A stretch of DNA of 6,784 bases from an uncultured candidate division Zixibacteria bacterium (lineage in GTDB: Bacteria; Zixibacteria; MSB-5A5; GN15; FEB-12), in NCBI GenBank assembly GCA_913009765.1, contig CAJVYT010000239.1, positions 1 through 6,784 on the forward strand, written 5' to 3'. Both the position numbers and the translations under genes were made by a program. Below, piece by piece: positions 1 to 6,776 of this stretch. Each line of letters starts with the position of its first letter. Position 1 is the first letter of the stretch. Below the pieces are notes generated by a model. That model saw only the letters and a program-made list of their open reading frames with translations. It was not told the DNA's origin and searched no databases.

Positions 1-673
1 TATCAAGATGCCACTTCTTTCCATCAGATAACCACAATTTAGTACCACTTGATACAACACCTTTTCCTACGCTCTCAAAACGACTCACACTCAATGGAAC
101 GATAGTCTTTGGCTGCAAAAGAATATTACCCTTTTCTTTATATGTTTCTATCTCAATTACTTTTATATCTACGCCATGTTCTCTCAACCATAGCGCCACA
201 CTGCCCAATTTGTCTTTTATCTCACTACCAAGCAATATAACTCGCTGATCCTGGTTGATATCAGGAATTTCATCTACGCTTGATTCCTGACAAAATCGCT
301 CATACACCGAGTTAAAGTTAAAATCTTTCTTACCAGAGTTATACAAATTAGCCTGCTTCTCAAAATCTTCGAATTTCCAGCTTGAAATATAACTAGCATA
401 CCTGGCCCCTTGCATATCAACAGGATCTTTAAGCTTCCCTCTCTTCAGCTCAATAATAACGGCATTACCTTGTGGATCTAATGCAAGTAAATCCAATCTA
501 TCTTTTACATCTTCTATAGTTACTTGCCTGCCAATAATAAGTAGCGGCTCGCCTAAAATAGACACATCCTTCTCTATCCAGTCTTCAAGGTGTGATTCTA
601 GTATTTGCTCTTTTGCAGGTTGTATTTCTTCTACTTTTTCTGGACCATCTTCTGTAATTTTCCAGATTGGCAT
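1..673 (-). CDS. NucS/DUF91-type PD-(D/E)xK nuclease-like protein, N-terminal part (C-terminus beyond the window)
   Basis: Translating the minus strand from the ATG at 673-671 gives 224 codons with no stop before the window edge, so the 3' end is missing. Residues 58-80 carry a PD-(D/E)xK nuclease core: D61 in RLDLLALD, then E75 and K77 in VIIELKRGK, with acidic residues E27 and E30 in the preceding helix. The DLL...ExK layout and the later segment around residues 160-192 (WLREHGVDIKVIEIE) match the endonuclease NucS/DUF91 group, whose known members cut DNA at mismatches or branched structures. The region after about residue 195 looks like the start of a further C-terminal domain (GTKLWLSDGKKWH). 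A strong Shine-Dalgarno, AGGGAGG at 685-679, lies 5 nt before the ATG and fixes the start. The gene is divergent from the five-gene operon and shares its promoter region. The nuclease fold is fairly secure. The substrate, and membership in the neighbouring system, are not. Confidence 0.8.
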   Translation of the reverse strand, partial: MPIWKITEDGPEKVEEIQPAKEQILESHLEDWIEKDVSILGEPLLIIGRQVTIEDVKDRLDLLALDPQGNAVIIELKRGKLKDPVDMQGARYASYISSWKFEDFEKQANLYNSGKKDFNFNSVYERFCQESSVDEIPDINQDQRVILLGSEIKDKLGSVALWLREHGVDIKVIEIETYKEKGNILLQPKTIVPLSVSRFESVGKGVVSSGTKLWLSDGKKWHLD

Positions 674-678
674 TACTA

Positions 679-685
679 CCTCCCT
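679..685 (-). promoter_or_regulatory. Strong ribosome binding site of the NucS-like gene
   Basis: On the minus strand AGGGAGG ends 5 nt before the ATG at 673. It is a near-consensus anti-16S match and decides the start codon of the leftward gene. Confidence 0.75.
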
Positions 686-750
686 ACATTTAAGTGCAAA
701 ACACCACCAAAACACGTATTTATTAACATATTCTTACTCTAATTTATTTA

Positions 751-811: not shown

Positions 812-1219
812 ATGGTAGCAAGAATCGGTGATAAAGTTAGAGTCAAACATAAGGATTTAGCTGGCCAGAGGGGCATTGTTCGTAAGGCAAACAATAAAGG
901 CCTTTTGATCGAACTGAATTCATCAAATGAGTCTATCTGGATACCAAAAAACGCAGTCACTAATTACAGTCTTGCTGCCCGTAAGGCCTGGAAGAATATG
1001 CCGAAACGACAGGTGGGTAGACCAAAGGGAAGCAAAGTAACGGACCGAATTTCAGTTACTCTACGTATAAACCGGGATAGTTGGAATAAATTTCGGTCAT
1101 TTGAATCAAACGGCCTCATTGAAGATAGAACGGCAGTTATTAACGACCTGATCGAACAGAAACTAGCATCTATAGAACATCGCCATGGCAAAAAAGCTCA
1201 GTGCAAATCGTCGGAATGA
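812..1219 (+). CDS. Small DNA-binding regulator: KOW-like + AT-hook + ribbon-helix-helix-like protein
   Basis: This 135-residue basic protein has three recognisable parts. Residues 3-50 resemble a KOW/SH3-like barrel (RIGDKVRVKHKDLAGQRGIV, then a strand and WIP). Residues 65-75 form an AT-hook-like segment with core GRPKG. Residues 78-122 have the strand-helix-helix pattern of ribbon-helix-helix repressors: a beta strand ISVTLRI followed by two predicted helices ending in NDLIEQKLASI. The ATG at 812 is the first standard start in the frame after the stop at 740-742. No Shine-Dalgarno is visible before it, so initiation is weak or unusual. The gene leads the operon, lies next to an inverted repeat, and overlaps the ATPase gene by 35 nt, all of which fit an autoregulator. 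A structural DNA-binding or nucleic-acid-recognition subunit is the alternative. The domain calls are by eye and the function is inferred. Confidence 0.72.
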   Translation: MVARIGDKVRVKHKDLAGQRGIVRKANNKGLLIELNSSNESIWIPKNAVTNYSLAARKAWKNMPKRQVGRPKGSKVTDRISVTLRINRDSWNKFRSFESNGLIEDRTAVINDLIEQKLASIEHRHGKKAQCKSSE

Positions 1220-2573
1220 AATCATAACTATGTTGGAGCAAGGCCAAGATAGACAATCTATTGCCTCTGTTATGGGGGTTTCCCCTGCTCAAGTATCTGC
1301 GGTCTCTGCTCATATAACGATGGGCACCTACGGTGCTTCAACAACTGCAGGCAGCGACTTATCTAACGAGGTAAGCGAAACAACAATGAATATGCTGAGC
1401 TCATTGCAAACAGCTCATCTAGACTCACTTGAACCTACCGATACTAATCCGATACCGTTAGGCATCAATGCCGATACAAATCAAACCGAGTATTGGAACC
1501 CCTATCCGAATGGTGGCTCACACAACCCTCATATCCTTATTTTAGGAGAAAGTGGAACCGGAAAAACCTATACAACCTCGTGTATCTTGGCTGAATTAGC
1601 TCAAGCCAATGTTCCTTCCATTGTCTTTGACTACGGACAAGGATTCTCTGCCGAATCCTTAGACCCGATTTTCTCTGAACATGCCAGCCCAATCGAGATT
1701 CAGGCCTCCAGAGATGGGATCGCAATAAATCCTTTGCAAATTTTCCCTTTTGATATGCATGGGCCTATTAACGTAGCCCAGCGCATTGCCGATACATTTT
1801 CAAGAGTCTATTCACGAATCGGAATTCAACAACATGCTGTTCTTAGACAAGCTATTTTAGAAGTATTTACTGATGCCGGAATAGTTGCAGAAACTCCTGA
1901 TACCTGGACTCTTGACTTACCCTCATTTTCGGCTGTACAGAAAAAACTAATTGATTACTCTATCGACCCAGACAACCCTGGTCGCAATCAAGCCTCCTCT
2001 GTTGCATCCCATATCTCAACCCTTTTTGTATTTAATACCTTTAGACCAGAAGGAGAAATGATCAATTGGTTTGATATTCTTCAATCCGGTGGGCACTGTT
2101 TCATAGTTCAACTAAAAGGCCTTGAACATTCACTAGAGCGAGCAGTAACTGAATTTTTGCTATGGAATTTTATTGGATTTGTTGACTCCTTGGGCCCTGG
2201 TCCTTTGCGAGCATTTATAGTACTAGACGAAGCGCATAAGCTTTCCTTTGACCAAGACTCTCCAGTAGAAAAACTACTAAGAGAAGGAAGAAAGTTTGGT
2301 TTAGGACTTATCCTTGCTTCACAACAACCTGATGACTTCTCCCCCATTGCTTTCTCGAATACTGCCACGAAAATAGTATTTCAAGTCGGTGATGATCGAG
2401 GATTGGTAGCGCGTCAACTATCTCGTAAAGTGAGAGGGTCTCATTCCTTTTCAGATATCGCTGAAATTATCTCTAAACTACCGCGTAGCTGGGCGTATGT
2501 TGTCTCAGAAAATGAAGGTCGAGTTGTTCGTATACTAAGTTTTTCTGAAAGAGAGCGCCAATGGAAGCAGTAA
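1185..2573 (+). CDS. HTH-fused HerA/FtsK-superfamily P-loop ATPase (DNA translocase-like)
   Basis: The 462-residue product starts with a helix-turn-helix-like segment (residues about 5-46: RQSIASVMGVSPAQVSAV, then AHITMGTY). A linker leads to a HerA/FtsK/VirB4-type ATPase core. Walker A is GESGTGKT at 121-128, preceded by a strand HILIL. The second strand ends in FDYGQGF (148-154), and INPLQIFPFD (181-190) resembles the NPL segment of VirB4/HerA proteins. Walker B is FIVLDEAH at 344-351 with E349 as the likely catalytic glutamate. A polar sensor segment, ASQQPDD, lies at 378-384. Such ATPases usually form hexamers that pump or thread DNA and work with a nuclease or effector partner. The N-terminal beta-barrel of classical HerA is absent and replaced by the HTH. 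The start overlaps the upstream gene by 35 nt without a clear Shine-Dalgarno, suggesting coupled translation. The superfamily call is secure; the exact branch is not. Confidence 0.9.
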   Translation: MAKKLSANRRNEIITMLEQGQDRQSIASVMGVSPAQVSAVSAHITMGTYGASTTAGSDLSNEVSETTMNMLSSLQTAHLDSLEPTDTNPIPLGINADTNQTEYWNPYPNGGSHNPHILILGESGTGKTYTTSCILAELAQANVPSIVFDYGQGFSAESLDPIFSEHASPIEIQASRDGIAINPLQIFPFDMHGPINVAQRIADTFSRVYSRIGIQQHAVLRQAILEVFTDAGIVAETPDTWTLDLPSFSAVQKKLIDYSIDPDNPGRNQASSVASHISTLFVFNTFRPEGEMINWFDILQSGGHCFIVQLKGLEHSLERAVTEFLLWNFIGFVDSLGPGPLRAFIVLDEAHKLSFDQDSPVEKLLREGRKFGLGLILASQQPDDFSPIAFSNTATKIVFQVGDDRGLVARQLSRKVRGSHSFSDIAEIISKLPRSWAYVVSENEGRVVRILSFSERERQWKQ

Positions 2574-3931
2574 GGATAGATAGCGAAAATTCCGCCTACA
2601 TATCTAGAGATAATCTGGCAAAGATTAAACTCGTCACCATTGCTGGGCCATTATTATGTAACCCTAATATGTCAGAAAGAGCTTCGATGCTGCTTTCCAA
2701 CCGGGCTAGGTGGGGAAGAGAAATGCCACTAGTAATGATAGCAGTACACAACGAACAAGAACTCAAGGCTGCAGATCGGCTCGTCAGTACATATGCTAAA
2801 CATGTGGCCGACTTCAGAATCGTTCAACAAAAAGGTCACAACGAAACGGTTGGGAATGCCATCGGTCTTTTCAGAGAGTATTTTGATCAATCTGCAGATC
2901 CGTTTACAGTAAAACGACAAAGCCTCTTCCTGACACGACGAGGTGGCAAGGGTAAGCCAAAATTTATATCGCCATTTACAGGAGGACAGGGCACTACGTG
3001 CGGGGAGTGGACACATGTTATGTCCCGGAAAAAAAACGGTACCATTTTGAAGGGATTCATGAAGGCATCTGTCGCTGTGGGGTTCTGCCCAGTAGGTTGC
3101 CCCTATTGTTATCTAAACATGCCTTACACAGACGGAATGGATGTTTCTTTGAATTGGGAAGACCTTAAGCAAGAGCTACTGGACAAGTGGATCGAGTATC
3201 GATGGCCTATTAATTTCGGGGAAACAAGCGGGCTGGTCGAATATGATGAATGGTTTGTAGACAACAATAACAATGGCTCAATGGTACAGTACATAATCGA
3301 TGCCTGTTCTTCGGCTAAAGTTACACCCTTCTTCTTAACAAAAATTCGCTACCCCGCCTATCTTAAGTTCCATGGAAAAGTGCAAACTGGTATTTCCCTA
3401 ATGCCAGAAGATGTGCGGGTTTGGCTGGCCCCAAACGGTTCCCCGACTGACGAGCTATTGGAAAGTCTTGCCTGGACTGTTTTTTCTGGCGCCGTGGACC
3501 CTGTGGTACGGCTTACCGTGATATGGCAACAAAAAGATTCTTATCCTGAATTGCTTACTCGATGCAAAGAATTACTTGGCAAAACTAATTGGAGATTAAC
3601 GTTGGATATTCTCCGATTCACGCCCACGACTGCATCAATTATTAATAATCGTTACCCGAAAGCTGCGGGGATCTTTGCTTCTGAACTTGATTCAGATAGC
3701 AAACTATCGCTAAGCCAGTTGGCCAAGAACGCAAGGGGCGCCAAAAAACTTAGGCCTAGCGAAGGTAGGCAGGCCAAAATATATACCTGGTTTAGGGATC
3801 AGTTAAATAACATTGGATGTAGTGATGTGATTCTAACTCCCTGTAAAGGTGATGCTAGTGAGCTACTGCCACTAGTGCGAAAGGGTGTGATTAAGGCTAT
3901 GCCATGTGCTTGTTACGGCAATAAACTATAG
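2561..3931 (+). CDS. Spore photoproduct lyase-like radical SAM protein
   Basis: The cluster motif C176-x3-C180-x2-C183 in GFCPVGCPYCYLN matches the SPL (SplB) branch of radical SAM enzymes, which bind a [4Fe-4S] cluster and cleave S-adenosylmethionine. Downstream segments follow the SPL order: a GE-type motif in NFGETSGLVEYD (218-229), FFLTKIRYPAYL (257-268), ISLMPEDV (278-285) and LRFTPTTASII (351-361). The protein has 456 residues against about 340 in classical SPL. Most of the excess is an unrecognised N-terminal region of about 165 residues. The position where SPL carries its hydrogen-donor cysteine, as I recall the family, falls in the GETSG segment here and is not cysteine. Additional cysteines sit at the extreme C-terminus (C449, C451). 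The gene overlaps the ATPase gene by 13 nt. Radical chemistry on nucleic acid or nucleotide is inferred; the substrate is unknown, and classical thymine-dimer repair is unlikely. Confidence 0.85.
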   Translation: MEAVRIDSENSAYISRDNLAKIKLVTIAGPLLCNPNMSERASMLLSNRARWGREMPLVMIAVHNEQELKAADRLVSTYAKHVADFRIVQQKGHNETVGNAIGLFREYFDQSADPFTVKRQSLFLTRRGGKGKPKFISPFTGGQGTTCGEWTHVMSRKKNGTILKGFMKASVAVGFCPVGCPYCYLNMPYTDGMDVSLNWEDLKQELLDKWIEYRWPINFGETSGLVEYDEWFVDNNNNGSMVQYIIDACSSAKVTPFFLTKIRYPAYLKFHGKVQTGISLMPEDVRVWLAPNGSPTDELLESLAWTVFSGAVDPVVRLTVIWQQKDSYPELLTRCKELLGKTNWRLTLDILRFTPTTASIINNRYPKAAGIFASELDSDSKLSLSQLAKNARGAKKLRPSEGRQAKIYTWFRDQLNNIGCSDVILTPCKGDASELLPLVRKGVIKAMPCACYGNKL

Positions 3932-3939
3932 ATCTAAGC

Positions 3940-3948
3940 AAGGAGAGG
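3940..3948 (+). promoter_or_regulatory. Strong ribosome binding site of the GHKL ATPase gene
   Basis: AAGGAGAGG lies in the 21-nt gap after the radical SAM gene, with AGGAG ending 7 nt before the ATG at 3953. It is the only strong Shine-Dalgarno inside the operon, suggesting that this product is made in excess or independently of upstream translation. It also settles the start codon. Confidence 0.75.
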
Positions 3949-3952
3949 AAAC

Positions 3953-5632
3953 ATGACTACTAAAGATTGGAAAACCTTGGCAACCTCAGAACAGCGTACA
4001 CTCCTGGAGCACAATACAGACGAAGAACTTGTAGATAAATTTAATCAAGATGTCTTATTTTACTCGGATATTAGAAAATTTTTTAGTGAGATACCGTCTC
4101 AGACTATACAGGCTGTCCCAAAGCCGCATTTTCCGCCAAAGGAACTGATAATTACTGCTCGTCGAGATCTATCTTTTTTTGAGGCCAATTTTGAATTGTT
4201 TGATAACTCTATAGATAAATGGCGAACTCTAGGTATGAAAAATTCATTGAATATAGAACTGGCCTACGATATTAATCACAGTATTGGTCGTTATAGAGAC
4301 AATGCTGGTGGTATGAATGAAAATGAGGTTTATAAAGTATTTATTCCCGGAGAAACTACCAATAACGATTTTAGCAAACCGGTAATTGGTTCGTTTGGCA
4401 TGGGAGCAAAAAAAGGCATATTCCGATTGACGGATGGAGCTAAGGTTGTTTCCTGTACTTCTGATGAATTTTCTGCCACTAGCGAGGTTCCTGAGAAATG
4501 GGAACAGACACCTTCCTGGGAGACACTAGATGGACGAGCAGAACCTATTGGTTTTGGGTGTACTGAAATTTATCTGTACAAATTATTTGATCCACCCTCA
4601 CAATCTGATATTGATGAATTGATAAAAAAAGCTAGTCAAGTATATGGTCCATTGTTGAAGGGGGATGATGAAACTCCAAAAATCAATATTTCAGTAAATG
4701 GGGTCCCCGTTACTTCACCTAGGTCCATTAATTGGTCTGGAGCAGAAAGTGCCCGCCCAAGAATCTACGACTACACCCATACTTTTAGGAATTTTCTAGA
4801 CACTGGAAGAAATGTTCAGCTAAACGTCCGGTTTGTTTGTGGTCTTACGCAGAAATCCACTGGACGGGCTTTAGACAAAGAAAGCGACTGGGGCATAGAC
4901 GTTTATGGAAACGGAAGATTAATTGAACCCCATTTAAAAGACGTTTTTGGCTTTGGTACCTCTGGATTAGGTAAAAATAGCCCAGGAGTAAAGTATTTCA
5001 GAGGTCTCCTATTTATTACTGGCCATAGTATTGGAATCCCTTGGGACACACACAAGCGCCAGTACCTACAAGACCATATTGTTAGCGCGTGGCTAAAGCA
5101 ACATCTTAGAAAGATAATTAAATCTTACTACAATATATCCTCTAGATTTGCTTCGGACACTACTAAGAGAAAAGATATTTTGGAGGGATCCGTTTTTGAG
5201 GGAAGTCCTGATGTATACAAGATATCTCCGGGCGGTGGGATATCTGACGATATGCTACCTAAATGGATATACGGAAAGACATCCACCAGTAATAAAACCA
5301 CTAACAGTCCGCCGTCTCAAAACGAGACTGATGATAAAAACACTGGGGATGATAGCGACGAGTCCAATGCAGTTCTAGGAGAAACTGATGATACTAGTCT
5401 AGTAGTTGAAATTCCCTTCGCACAATCTGACTTCTCAAAACAGTTAGAGCGATTCTCTGCAGCTGATGATGAAGAACTAGCTACCGCTATTTCTGATTGC
5501 TTGATAAGTGGTATCGCATTTCAACTGTCCAAAAAAGAATTAGATTCTGCCCTCTCTGCCTTCCATTTAGAAGATCCTATTGAACTATCAGATCTTTTAA
5601 AAGAACAGTTAATAAAAAAAATTGGCCAATAG
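3953..5632 (+). CDS. GHKL ATPase, MORC/MutL/Hsp90-like
   Basis: The 559-residue product has the full Bergerat-fold signature. The N box is ELFDNSIDKW (81-90), with E81 as likely catalytic base and N85 as magnesium ligand. The G1 box is DNAGGM (116-121), the G2 box is GSFGMGAKKG (146-155), and a G3-like GFGCTEI lies at 200-206. An S5-like transducer follows, with VYGNGRLIEP (317-326) and WDTHKRQY (364-371). K368 sits where MORC/MutL-type proteins place the lysine that contacts the ATP gamma-phosphate. Residues about 441-482 are a polar, acidic, low-complexity linker, followed by a helical tail (495-559). ATP-driven dimerisation into a clamp on DNA is the family behaviour. Bacterial MORC-like ATPases are known in restriction-modification-like loci. 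No histidine-kinase features are present. The ATPase assignment is firm; the role as a clamp in this operon is inference. Confidence 0.9.
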   Translation: MTTKDWKTLATSEQRTLLEHNTDEELVDKFNQDVLFYSDIRKFFSEIPSQTIQAVPKPHFPPKELIITARRDLSFFEANFELFDNSIDKWRTLGMKNSLNIELAYDINHSIGRYRDNAGGMNENEVYKVFIPGETTNNDFSKPVIGSFGMGAKKGIFRLTDGAKVVSCTSDEFSATSEVPEKWEQTPSWETLDGRAEPIGFGCTEIYLYKLFDPPSQSDIDELIKKASQVYGPLLKGDDETPKINISVNGVPVTSPRSINWSGAESARPRIYDYTHTFRNFLDTGRNVQLNVRFVCGLTQKSTGRALDKESDWGIDVYGNGRLIEPHLKDVFGFGTSGLGKNSPGVKYFRGLLFITGHSIGIPWDTHKRQYLQDHIVSAWLKQHLRKIIKSYYNISSRFASDTTKRKDILEGSVFEGSPDVYKISPGGGISDDMLPKWIYGKTSTSNKTTNSPPSQNETDDKNTGDDSDESNAVLGETDDTSLVVEIPFAQSDFSKQLERFSAADDEELATAISDCLISGIAFQLSKKELDSALSAFHLEDPIELSDLLKEQLIKKIGQ

Positions 5633-5646
5633 AGCTTCACTCTATT
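5628..5646 (+). promoter_or_regulatory. Intercistronic hairpin spanning the GHKL stop codon
   Basis: AATAGAG (5628-5634) and CTCTATT (5640-5646) are perfect 7-bp complementary arms around a 5-nt loop (CTTCA). The stem contains the TAG stop of the GHKL gene (5630-5632) and ends 4 nt before the next ATG, where a Shine-Dalgarno would normally be. It lacks a GC-rich stem and U-tract, so it is not a convincing terminator. A role in limiting or coupling translation of the last gene is more likely. Confidence 0.5.
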
Positions 5647-5650
5647 AACT

Positions 5651-6502
5651 ATGTCAAAAATATACCATGAATCTGCTTCATCTGCCTATAGAATCCAGAA
5701 ACGCTTGTCATTAAACCAGTGTTTTAGGGAGATTTACAAAGACACTAGACCGCCTGATCAAATCTCCTACATTACATTTGGCGGTGCTGATCTTTATGAT
5801 GTAATGGATTTATTGGCCGTTTTTGATGTCACCAAAAGTAAATTTTTTATTACGTCTTTTGAGAGAGATGAAGATGTTGCGGCATCTTCAAAAAATTGCC
5901 CAGTTGCCTCTACGTTATCGAAAATTAACACCGTTAATATACTAATTAATCCATACGAATTTCCTATTGGTATAGAACAATTGAGTAGCATTAGAGAATT
6001 AAATAAATTTATTTACTTTCTAGATTACACTGGTACATACAGCGAGAAAGATAAAGATGTACTCTTGGACATACTTAATCAGGGATTGTTGCGCAAGGGC
6101 GATTACTTGTTGGTTACCTCCTGCCTTACCCCGCGTATTGTCCATCAGCCAAGTTTCATGAAGACGCACTCTTCTTCGTTTAAACTATACTTCTCTACAA
6201 CAGAGGTCGACAACGAATTTGTTGTGCGCAACCACGTTGACCTACTCGTTGCTGCTGCATTGTCAGAATATGATAAGACTTCCAGATTTAATGGTAATAG
6301 AGAATTCCTGAGAGCTCGTCTATTGCGCAAGTTCCGTTACCAAGATACACGTTCTCCAATGGGGATTTGGCTATTCAAACTGGAATGTCGCGATACACCT
6401 ACCATTGTACTTGAGGATGTGCCTTTAAAAGATTATCCCAGTGCATTTGAACATCACCCTATTAAGAGAGAGCCAATCCCAAATATCTTTGATGACTTAT
6501 AA
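5651..6502 (+). CDS. Unrecognised protein with Rossmann/methyltransferase-like features
   Basis: I do not recognise this 283-residue protein as a named family. Its N-terminal two thirds read like an alternating alpha/beta Rossmann fold. A strand YITF leads into GGADLYDVMDLL (44-55), which resembles a nucleotide- or SAM-binding loop. A second strand ends with an acid (FFITSFERDED, E71). A central FIYFLDYTGTY (120-130) is followed by a helix, and LRKGDYLLVTSCL (147-159) looks like a later core strand. That order is compatible with a class I SAM-dependent methyltransferase, or with Rossmann partner proteins encoded beside three-cysteine radical-SAM-like proteins. The consensus glycine loop of methyltransferases is degenerate, so catalysis is doubtful. 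The C-terminus is basic, then proline-containing. The gene follows the GHKL gene by 18 nt in the same frame, has no Shine-Dalgarno, and is preceded by a hairpin. It is clearly the operon's last gene. Confidence 0.75.
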   Translation: MSKIYHESASSAYRIQKRLSLNQCFREIYKDTRPPDQISYITFGGADLYDVMDLLAVFDVTKSKFFITSFERDEDVAASSKNCPVASTLSKINTVNILINPYEFPIGIEQLSSIRELNKFIYFLDYTGTYSEKDKDVLLDILNQGLLRKGDYLLVTSCLTPRIVHQPSFMKTHSSSFKLYFSTTEVDNEFVVRNHVDLLVAAALSEYDKTSRFNGNREFLRARLLRKFRYQDTRSPMGIWLFKLECRDTPTIVLEDVPLKDYPSAFEHHPIKREPIPNIFDDL

Positions 6503-6515
6503 TCTTTATAGAATA

Positions 6516-6776
6516 CTATTTTCTTTCACCAATTAATTTCACCAATATTTTACCTATCAAAACCCTTGCGGATTCTTTATTTGGCGAGCATTCATAAACT
6601 AAATCTATTACTTCTCTATATGTCGATCGTTTATGTTTAGGTAATTGATCTAGAGGACCCTTCTTATTGCGTAATACTACCTTCTTGTCTATCTTTCCTT
6701 CCAGCTTCTTCAATTTCATTTTAAGCTTATTTGTTTCACTCAAACCTAAAACCACCACATCCGTCAACTTATTCAT
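6516..6776 (-). CDS. Small lysine-rich hypothetical protein, convergent with the operon (start may lie beyond the window)
   Basis: This minus-strand frame encodes 86 residues if started at the ATG at 6776. The frame stays open to the window edge, so the true start could be further upstream. The product is strongly basic, with lysine-rich helical stretches (KLKMKLKKLEGKIDKK, about residues 17-32). A compact C-terminal half follows (KHKRSTYREVIDLVYEC, then helices ending in KLIGERK). No known domain is recognised. No other gene competes for this stretch, and its stop lies 13 nt beyond the end of the operon, a normal convergent spacing. The bases before the ATG (GGGGCG) are a poor Shine-Dalgarno. 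It may be a nucleic-acid-binding protein, the C-terminal fragment of a larger one, or a chance frame in AT-rich DNA. Confidence 0.45.
   Translation of the reverse strand: MNKLTDVVVLGLSETNKLKMKLKKLEGKIDKKVVLRNKKGPLDQLPKHKRSTYREVIDLVYECSPNKESARVLIGKILVKLIGERK

Follow-up and report, generated by a model that had tools for sequence, protein, structure and literature searches.

The window analysed here, a stretch of 6,784 nucleotides (contig CAJVYT010000239.1) from an uncultured candidate division Zixibacteria bacterium, carries a five-gene operon (genes A to E, Table 1) that combines a putative DNA-binding protein, a HerA-like ATPase, a radical S-adenosylmethionine (SAM) enzyme with the fold of spore photoproduct lyase (SPL), a GHKL ATPase and a protein with a methyltransferase fold. 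Two related loci indicated that A, B and C form a fixed core, behind which the pair D-E is exchanged, and the operon may represent a modification-based system directed against invading DNA. An earlier note, made from the sequence alone, had placed five same-strand open reading frames (ORFs), overlapping or nearly abutting, at 812-6502, and these coordinates were confirmed. The frames of A and B overlap by 35 nt and those of B and C by 13 nt, and gaps of 21 and 18 nt separate C from D and D from E, respectively.

Table 1. Features of the window and of the loci that contain a GHKL gene followed by a Methyltransf_35 (PF20553) gene.
Feature	Position	Strand	Description
Gene A	812-1219	+	135 aa; N-terminal KOW/SH3-like stretch and C-terminal ribbon-helix-helix-like stretch
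Gene B	1185-2573	+	462 aa; helix-turn-helix and HerA/FtsK-clade ATPase, closest to the C-terminal ATPase of DndH
Gene C	2561-3931	+	456 aa; radical SAM enzyme, SPL fold
Gene D	3953-5632	+	559 aa; MORC/paraMORC-like GHKL ATPase, first in exchangeable cassette
Gene E	5651-6502	+	283 aa; class I SAM-methyltransferase fold, distantly Methyltransf_35-like, second in cassette
NucS-like PD-(D/E)xK neighbour (PADLOC PDC-S11 candidate defence family)	2-715	-	cut by window end
86-codon ORF	6516-6776	-	without meaningful family match
Locus L010			C5-methyltransferase directly before GHKL gene; with Vsr
Loci L011, L012			C5-methyltransferase directly before GHKL gene
Locus L035			C5-methyltransferase directly before GHKL gene; Vsr downstream
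Locus L034	5481-12999		DndC, DndD, DndE-HerA fusion, GHKL, Methyltransf_35; opposite strand nearby carries a DndA-type cysteine desulfurase
Locus L015 (Microvirga plasmid)	1575-19568		DISARM with C5-methylase, Vsr and MmeI; inserted GHKL and O-methyltransferase pair

Proteins encoded by the operon

Protein C has the overall fold of SPL, including the N-terminal domain, over 316 aligned residues, a match that rests on VIA-align 2 and on profile alignment and that upholds the SPL-like radical SAM protein of the earlier note. C and SPL share the CxxxCxxC motif (residues 176-183, with C176, C180 and C183), which was kept in all 42 aligned homologues, and the equivalent of Tyr98 (SPL numbering), which was conserved in 40 of them. 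C differs from SPL in its greater length, in a conserved Cys147, in the conserved C-terminal cysteines 428, 449 and 451, which perhaps hold an auxiliary cluster, and in the column of Cys140, the hydrogen donor of SPL. This column, identified through the chains with C140S and C140A, is occupied by Glu221 in C, and the 42 sequences carry E (40), D (1) or A (1) there. As a single sequence, C matched Radical_SAM of Pfam with an E-value of 0.16 and fell below the curated cut-offs for SPL, both in Pfam (E-value 0.22, 10.8 of 27 bits) and in TIGR04070 (12.7 of 400 bits). Its relatives comprised 76 protein clusters, the window's own included, six of which bore the source name 'DNA repair photolyase'. 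A role for C as a peptide-modifying radical SAM enzyme was weighed and set aside.

Protein B joins an N-terminal helix-turn-helix (HTH) part (HTH_7, E-value 2.2e-4, 21.7 of 23.8 bits) to a central DUF87/HerA domain (Pfam E-value 1.1e-11), in which the translation contains GESGTGKT as Walker A and FIVLDEAH as Walker B. Its assignment as a HerA-like ATPase was borne out by the best PADLOC match, to the C-terminal part of DndH (E-value 7e-50), with mad8 also matched (E-value 1e-19), and by the nearest solved structure, DptH (7es4, E-value 1.6e-10). This likeness was judged from match scores, and it concerns the ATPase part of DndH, not a nuclease. Protein A, which matched KOW (E-value 0.01), a BrnA-type ribbon-helix-helix (RHH; E-value 0.12) and the KOW of SPT5/L24 (E-values 0.15-0.3), is predicted to be a probable DNA-binding core subunit. 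A conjugation ATPase reading was weighed and set aside, as was a toxin-antitoxin reading that had been prompted by the weak BrnA match of A.

Protein D matched HATPase_c_3 of Pfam (E-value 1.2e-4, 22.6 of 25 bits), and D84, N85, D88, D116, AGG (118-120), GSF (146-148) and GAKK (151-154) were invariant in the 23 aligned sequences, that of the window included. The profile of these 23 sequences had a sole match in the PDB at an E-value of 0.1 or less, namely MORC4 (7k7t, E-value 9.3e-4), in agreement with the MORC-like GHKL ATPase proposed earlier; the Walker A and B, CxxxCxxC and GHKL boxes that had been reported were all found, in B, C and D, respectively. Protein E has a class I SAM-methyltransferase fold, the nearest fold being that of Trm1. 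Among its relatives, 13 of 48 matched PF20553 (Methyltransf_35) at an E-value of 0.01 or less (best, 1.3e-8), and the alignment of the relatives matched the PF20553 alignment at 73.9%, pointing to a kinship that appears distant.

A fixed core and an exchanged cassette

Contigs from one genome of each species were scanned with the C alignment and two peptide patterns; 29 stretches matched, and two of these were relatives, namely L001, by title from Candidatus Latescibacterota, and L002, by title from Gemmatimonadota, which fall together within a single phylum-level set of 64 genomes. The order A-B-C and the overlapping frames recurred in L001 and L002, with identities to the window of 46 and 49% for A, 56 and 58% for B, and 64 and 65% for C, and the GC content was 41% in the window vs. 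52-56% in the related loci. A GHKL gene and a small partner followed C in all three loci, and these pairs differed from one another. The cassette of L001 contained a relative of D with 27% identity to that of the window, and a partner with 21% identity to window E (BLAST E-value 0.006; hhalign probability 97%); a profile built from window E matched one of 386 genomes, through this same L001 protein (E-value 4.1e-6), with scoring limited to six candidates for each listed genome. In L002 both the GHKL protein and the small protein were of another kind, and neither significantly matched D or E of the window. The methyltransferase nature of the partner was modelled in the window, recognized by profile in L001, and seen by eye only in L002.

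Past E, the L001 locus matched the 3' end of C a second time, and this match ran into a broken copy of the D gene of L002. This relic of 427 nt was 85.5% identical to L002, vs. 77.3% over 119 nt to the C end of L001 itself. On its simplest reading, one cassette would have displaced another in L001, with the 3' end of C as the site of recombination. The conserved A-B-C genes, the differing downstream pairs and the relic of L001 thus indicate, for the three loci seen, that A-B-C is fixed and that the GHKL gene and its partner are swapped. The earlier note had treated A as a separate DNA-binding regulator over the operon, a view that does not fit the position of A within the core.

Linkage was also compared through the size of the longest contig, the only contig visible for each cluster, among 76 C, 67 D and 57 E clusters of relatives (the window's own protein counted in each). 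D and E clusters had 18 equal sizes, one of them that of the window, vs. 0-1 in shifted controls, and C and D clusters had four (one, the window) vs. 0-1. C and E clusters had three (one, the window) vs. 0-2, so that by count this pair is not clearly above control; one common C-E size, 7,323,734, is hard to put down to chance. Besides that of the window, no size was common to the C, D and E lists. The Rossmann protein of the earlier note is present at the locus, and it can be refined to a class I SAM-methyltransferase fold that travels with D elsewhere (17 further size matches).

The C family is rare, and its distribution is patchy. Full-length C was found in 2 of 64 and in 2 of 386 genomes by whole-genome searches, the two genomes being the same. 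At an E-value of 1e-20 or less, C was found in none of the further sets (0/3, 0/40, 0/3, 0/385 and 0/386), where an empty result in the absence of a known positive shows nothing; the sets overlap, and at most four candidates were scored per listed genome in the 385- and 386-genome searches. Short matches to the CxxxCxxC region (L006 and L018-L024; raw tallies 3/64 and 10/386) were dropped as generic radical SAM. C had no relatives in the viral contigs, plasmids or phages searched, window E had none in the viral contigs or plasmids searched, and the window DNA had none in plasmids.

Modification genes beside the GHKL and Methyltransf_35 pair

PF20553 was matched in 3 of 64 genomes, 2 of 202 genomes, and 1 of 72,556 plasmid records. 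A GHKL ATPase gene lay directly upstream of the PF20553 gene in all six loci, in the same position as D relative to E, and every one of the six gene runs included a DNA-modification module (Table 1). Because the number is small and the loci were found via PF20553, these data measure the company of the pair and not that of C. Window D is related to the GHKL partners of PF20553 genes, with an E-value of 1.3e-10 to the GHKL protein of L034. In plasmids, window D had three matches, all archaeal (L026, L027 and L028). Dam-type methylase genes lay beside the GHKL gene in L026 and L027, and in L026 (a Natronorubrum plasmid) the D-like gene stood between two of them, with dptF, dptG and a gene with an FtsK domain alongside. 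The check for defence genes that the earlier note had proposed was positive for the cassette: relatives of D and E sit with restriction-modification, Dnd and DISARM genes.

The Dnd module of L034 shares with the window a HerA ATPase, a modification enzyme, a D-related GHKL gene and a Methyltransf_35-type gene. B matched the HerA part of its DndE-HerA fusion (hhalign probability 96%, E-value 4.1e-9). The window differs in that an SPL-fold radical SAM enzyme stands in for DndC and DndD, neither of which was matched among the seven window proteins scanned, and in that A and B are separate genes, A having an RHH-like stretch and no significant DndE match. Set against L034, B, and perhaps A, is the counterpart of DndE-HerA, and C occupies the modification-enzyme slot, albeit in another gene order. 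According to the available text of PMC10853773, cytosine methylases can be recruited by Dnd-type cores as a substitute for phosphorothioation, and HerA/FtsK capture and DndE-HerA fusions have been described; its radical-SAM passage is about DndC. Compared with DndFGH and the HerA-FtsK capture systems in that text, the window has in common HTH parts and an ATPase whose closest match is the C-terminal domain of DndH, and it differs in lacking a restriction endonuclease, DndF and DndG, in its stand-alone B of 462 aa and in the added radical SAM enzyme.

In the available parts of the literature, paraMORC GHKL proteins accompany methylases and Vsr in restriction-modification loci (Iyer 2008, PMC2292703), and a GHKL duplet lies next to C5-methylases (PMC8011034). 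The MORC-motif GHKL ATPase is common to those loci, which lie beside DNA-modification genes, and to the window; the operon has a radical SAM enzyme and HerA, and no matched helicase, C5-methyltransferase or nuclease. DISARM, as found in L015, includes the same kind of GHKL and Methyltransf_35 pair, and the window had no match to DrmA, DrmB, DrmC or DrmD (no PADLOC match to drmA, drmB or drmC among the window proteins). B alone matched a mad model of MADS, through mad8, and no other mad gene was matched. PADLOC (2023) contained no model that matched A, C, D or E at an E-value of 1 or less, which agrees with the earlier statement that the set is not a named system, and no description of the A-E set, or of an SPL-like enzyme in such a locus, was found in the available text of the open-access literature searched. 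Modification-linked HerA and GHKL loci are known; that the chemistry itself is new is judged somewhat unlikely.

Proposed self-marking of DNA and its alternatives

The reading favoured here, for which the chance is put at a little short of even, is that A-E form a modification-based anti-invader system in which C marks self DNA. A and B, an RHH-like protein and an HTH-HerA translocase, would bind, load on and travel along DNA, as DndE-HerA of Dnd would do. C would label self by a covalent change made on DNA bases through radical chemistry, filling the slot that is held in related loci by a C5-methyltransferase or DndCD. The GHKL ATPase D would close on DNA in an ATP-gated manner, and its methyltransferase-fold partner E would read or complete the mark, so that the pair could tell marked from unmarked DNA; unmarked DNA would be blocked or passed to a nuclease encoded elsewhere. 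Counted in favour of this reading are the overlapping core, the likeness of B to DndH and DptH, the fold of C with its altered Cys140 column, the modification genes beside all six GHKL and Methyltransf_35 pairs, the match of B to the HerA part of L034, the relic in L001, the Dam-type methylase genes next to two of the three plasmid matches to D, the adjacent PDC-S11 gene and the cytosine methylases of Dnd-type cores. Genes, motifs, folds, core and cassette, and the slot of C are observed in sequence and fold, and DNA as the substrate of C, the self mark, restriction and the roles of D and E are conjectural. The machine that 'senses, clamps and alters' nucleic acid, as the earlier note pictured it, is likewise conjectural. 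The narrower proposal that the SPL-fold enzyme, with Glu in place of the quenching Cys and an added C-terminal Cys set, installs a radical-derived self mark read by the exchangeable GHKL-methyltransferase pair is tentative.

Several observations weigh against self-marking. No nuclease family was matched by any of A-E in Pfam, PADLOC and other family library scans, in line with the earlier note, and the absence of a nuclease from the operon is the main gap of the proposed mechanism. For C, Foldseek gave marginal E-values to methylenetetrahydrofolate reductase and short-chain dehydrogenases, with SPL not among the top 50, and we infer DNA as its substrate from the fold. The domains of A rest on weak matches throughout; A had no Pfam DndE match at an E-value of 1 or less, and its BLAST E-value to the DndE part of L034 was 0.72. 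E stayed below the cut-off of PF20553 (E-value 4.6e-4, 20 of 27 bits), and a search with its profile gave no match to the PF20553 gene of G050 at an E-value of 1e-5 or less. The E protein of L001 had no Pfam match at an E-value of 0.1 or less, the second cassette protein of L002 gave an hhalign probability of 0.2 with window E and 5.7% with the PF20553 set, and L028 had no annotated modification gene beside its D-like gene. The co-occurrence across unrelated taxa that the earlier note called for stood in so far as A-B-C recurs, and fell short in that the contig-level evidence covers, besides the window, two genomes that belong to a single phylum; the objection that co-occurrence is limited to a single lineage is thus not removed.

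The same evidence bears on four other readings. The earlier note had reasoned that, with no nuclease present, C or E would have to be the effector. The nuclease gap was upheld and, together with the DndH-like B and the HerA capture systems described in the available text of PMC10853773, is consistent with a HerA/FtsK-capture defence in which A, B and D bring C to invader DNA, which it damages or cross-links with no self mark. This was considered unlikely: in the other contexts of the pair the slot of C is held by modification enzymes, not nucleases, and the newly described capture systems in that text are said to carry active endonuclease domains. The locus comparison suggests a DNA-modification role for C, which need not be the effector. 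Slightly less likely is DNA-lesion repair, in which C, as a lyase of the SPL type, would undo a base lesion that B locates by translocation along DNA, with D and E as accessories. The SPL fold over 316 residues, the invariant CxxxCxxC, the Tyr98 equivalent and the photolyase source names argue for repair, whereas Glu at the Cys140 position in 40 of 42 sequences argues against it, and the patchy distribution, the exchangeable cassette and the restriction-modification, Dnd and DISARM company fit conflict systems better. RNA modification or repair, in which a KOW-like A would bind RNA and E (with Trm1 as nearest fold) and C would modify tRNA or rRNA, was regarded as quite improbable. Finally, the genes might adjoin by chance or through a mobile element and have no joint function, as the rare family and the few loci behind the five-gene contig evidence would allow; this is barely credible given that A-B-C order and overlaps were kept at 46-65% identity across the difference in GC content, that a GHKL gene and a small partner lay behind C in all three loci, and that D and E had 17 further size matches vs. 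0-1 in controls.

If self-marking is correct, bacteria in conflict with invaders would use radical SAM chemistry on a photoproduct-lyase scaffold to mark DNA or otherwise change it, and the scaffold of a repair enzyme would have come to serve in DNA marking. An unknown nucleoside, detectable by mass spectrometry, would be predicted, and the GHKL and Methyltransf_35 pair seen beside C5-methyltransferases, Dnd and DISARM would gain a testable role. A modular exchange rule would also be suggested, in which the modification core is fixed and the ATPase-methyltransferase cassette is swapped.

In the flanks of the window, the gene at 2-715 matched PDC-S11 of PADLOC (E-value 1e-36) and NucS_C with an E-value of 0.0013, below the cut-off of that family. 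It adjoins the operon in divergent orientation and is a candidate member only. Scans for promoters and terminators did not exceed the shuffled expectation and were not used. Just upstream of A in L001 lies an AbiEi/HTH-like gene (6932-8011), below Pfam cut-offs and with a PD-(D/E)xK-like pattern by eye, and farther out are ordinary metabolic genes (by eye). An AlbA_2-like gene, below the Pfam cut-off, adjoins the L002 locus. Also adjoining the A-E locus of L002, at 7231-12101, a run of genes on the opposite strand encodes a GHKL protein of 663 aa and a pair of proteins related to each other; one of the pair is a radical SAM protein that contains CxxxCxxC and matches B12-binding below the threshold. 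Radical SAM proteins were also found together with GHKL ATPases on the plasmids L029 (Bradyrhizobium), L030 (Novosphingobium pNL1) and L031 (Agrobacterium), which carry recurrent sets of PIN-like, GHKL ATPase, DGQHR, radical SAM and second ATP-binding proteins; the DGQHR protein of L030 matches DndB of Pfam, and the radical SAM part of L031 is on the opposite strand.

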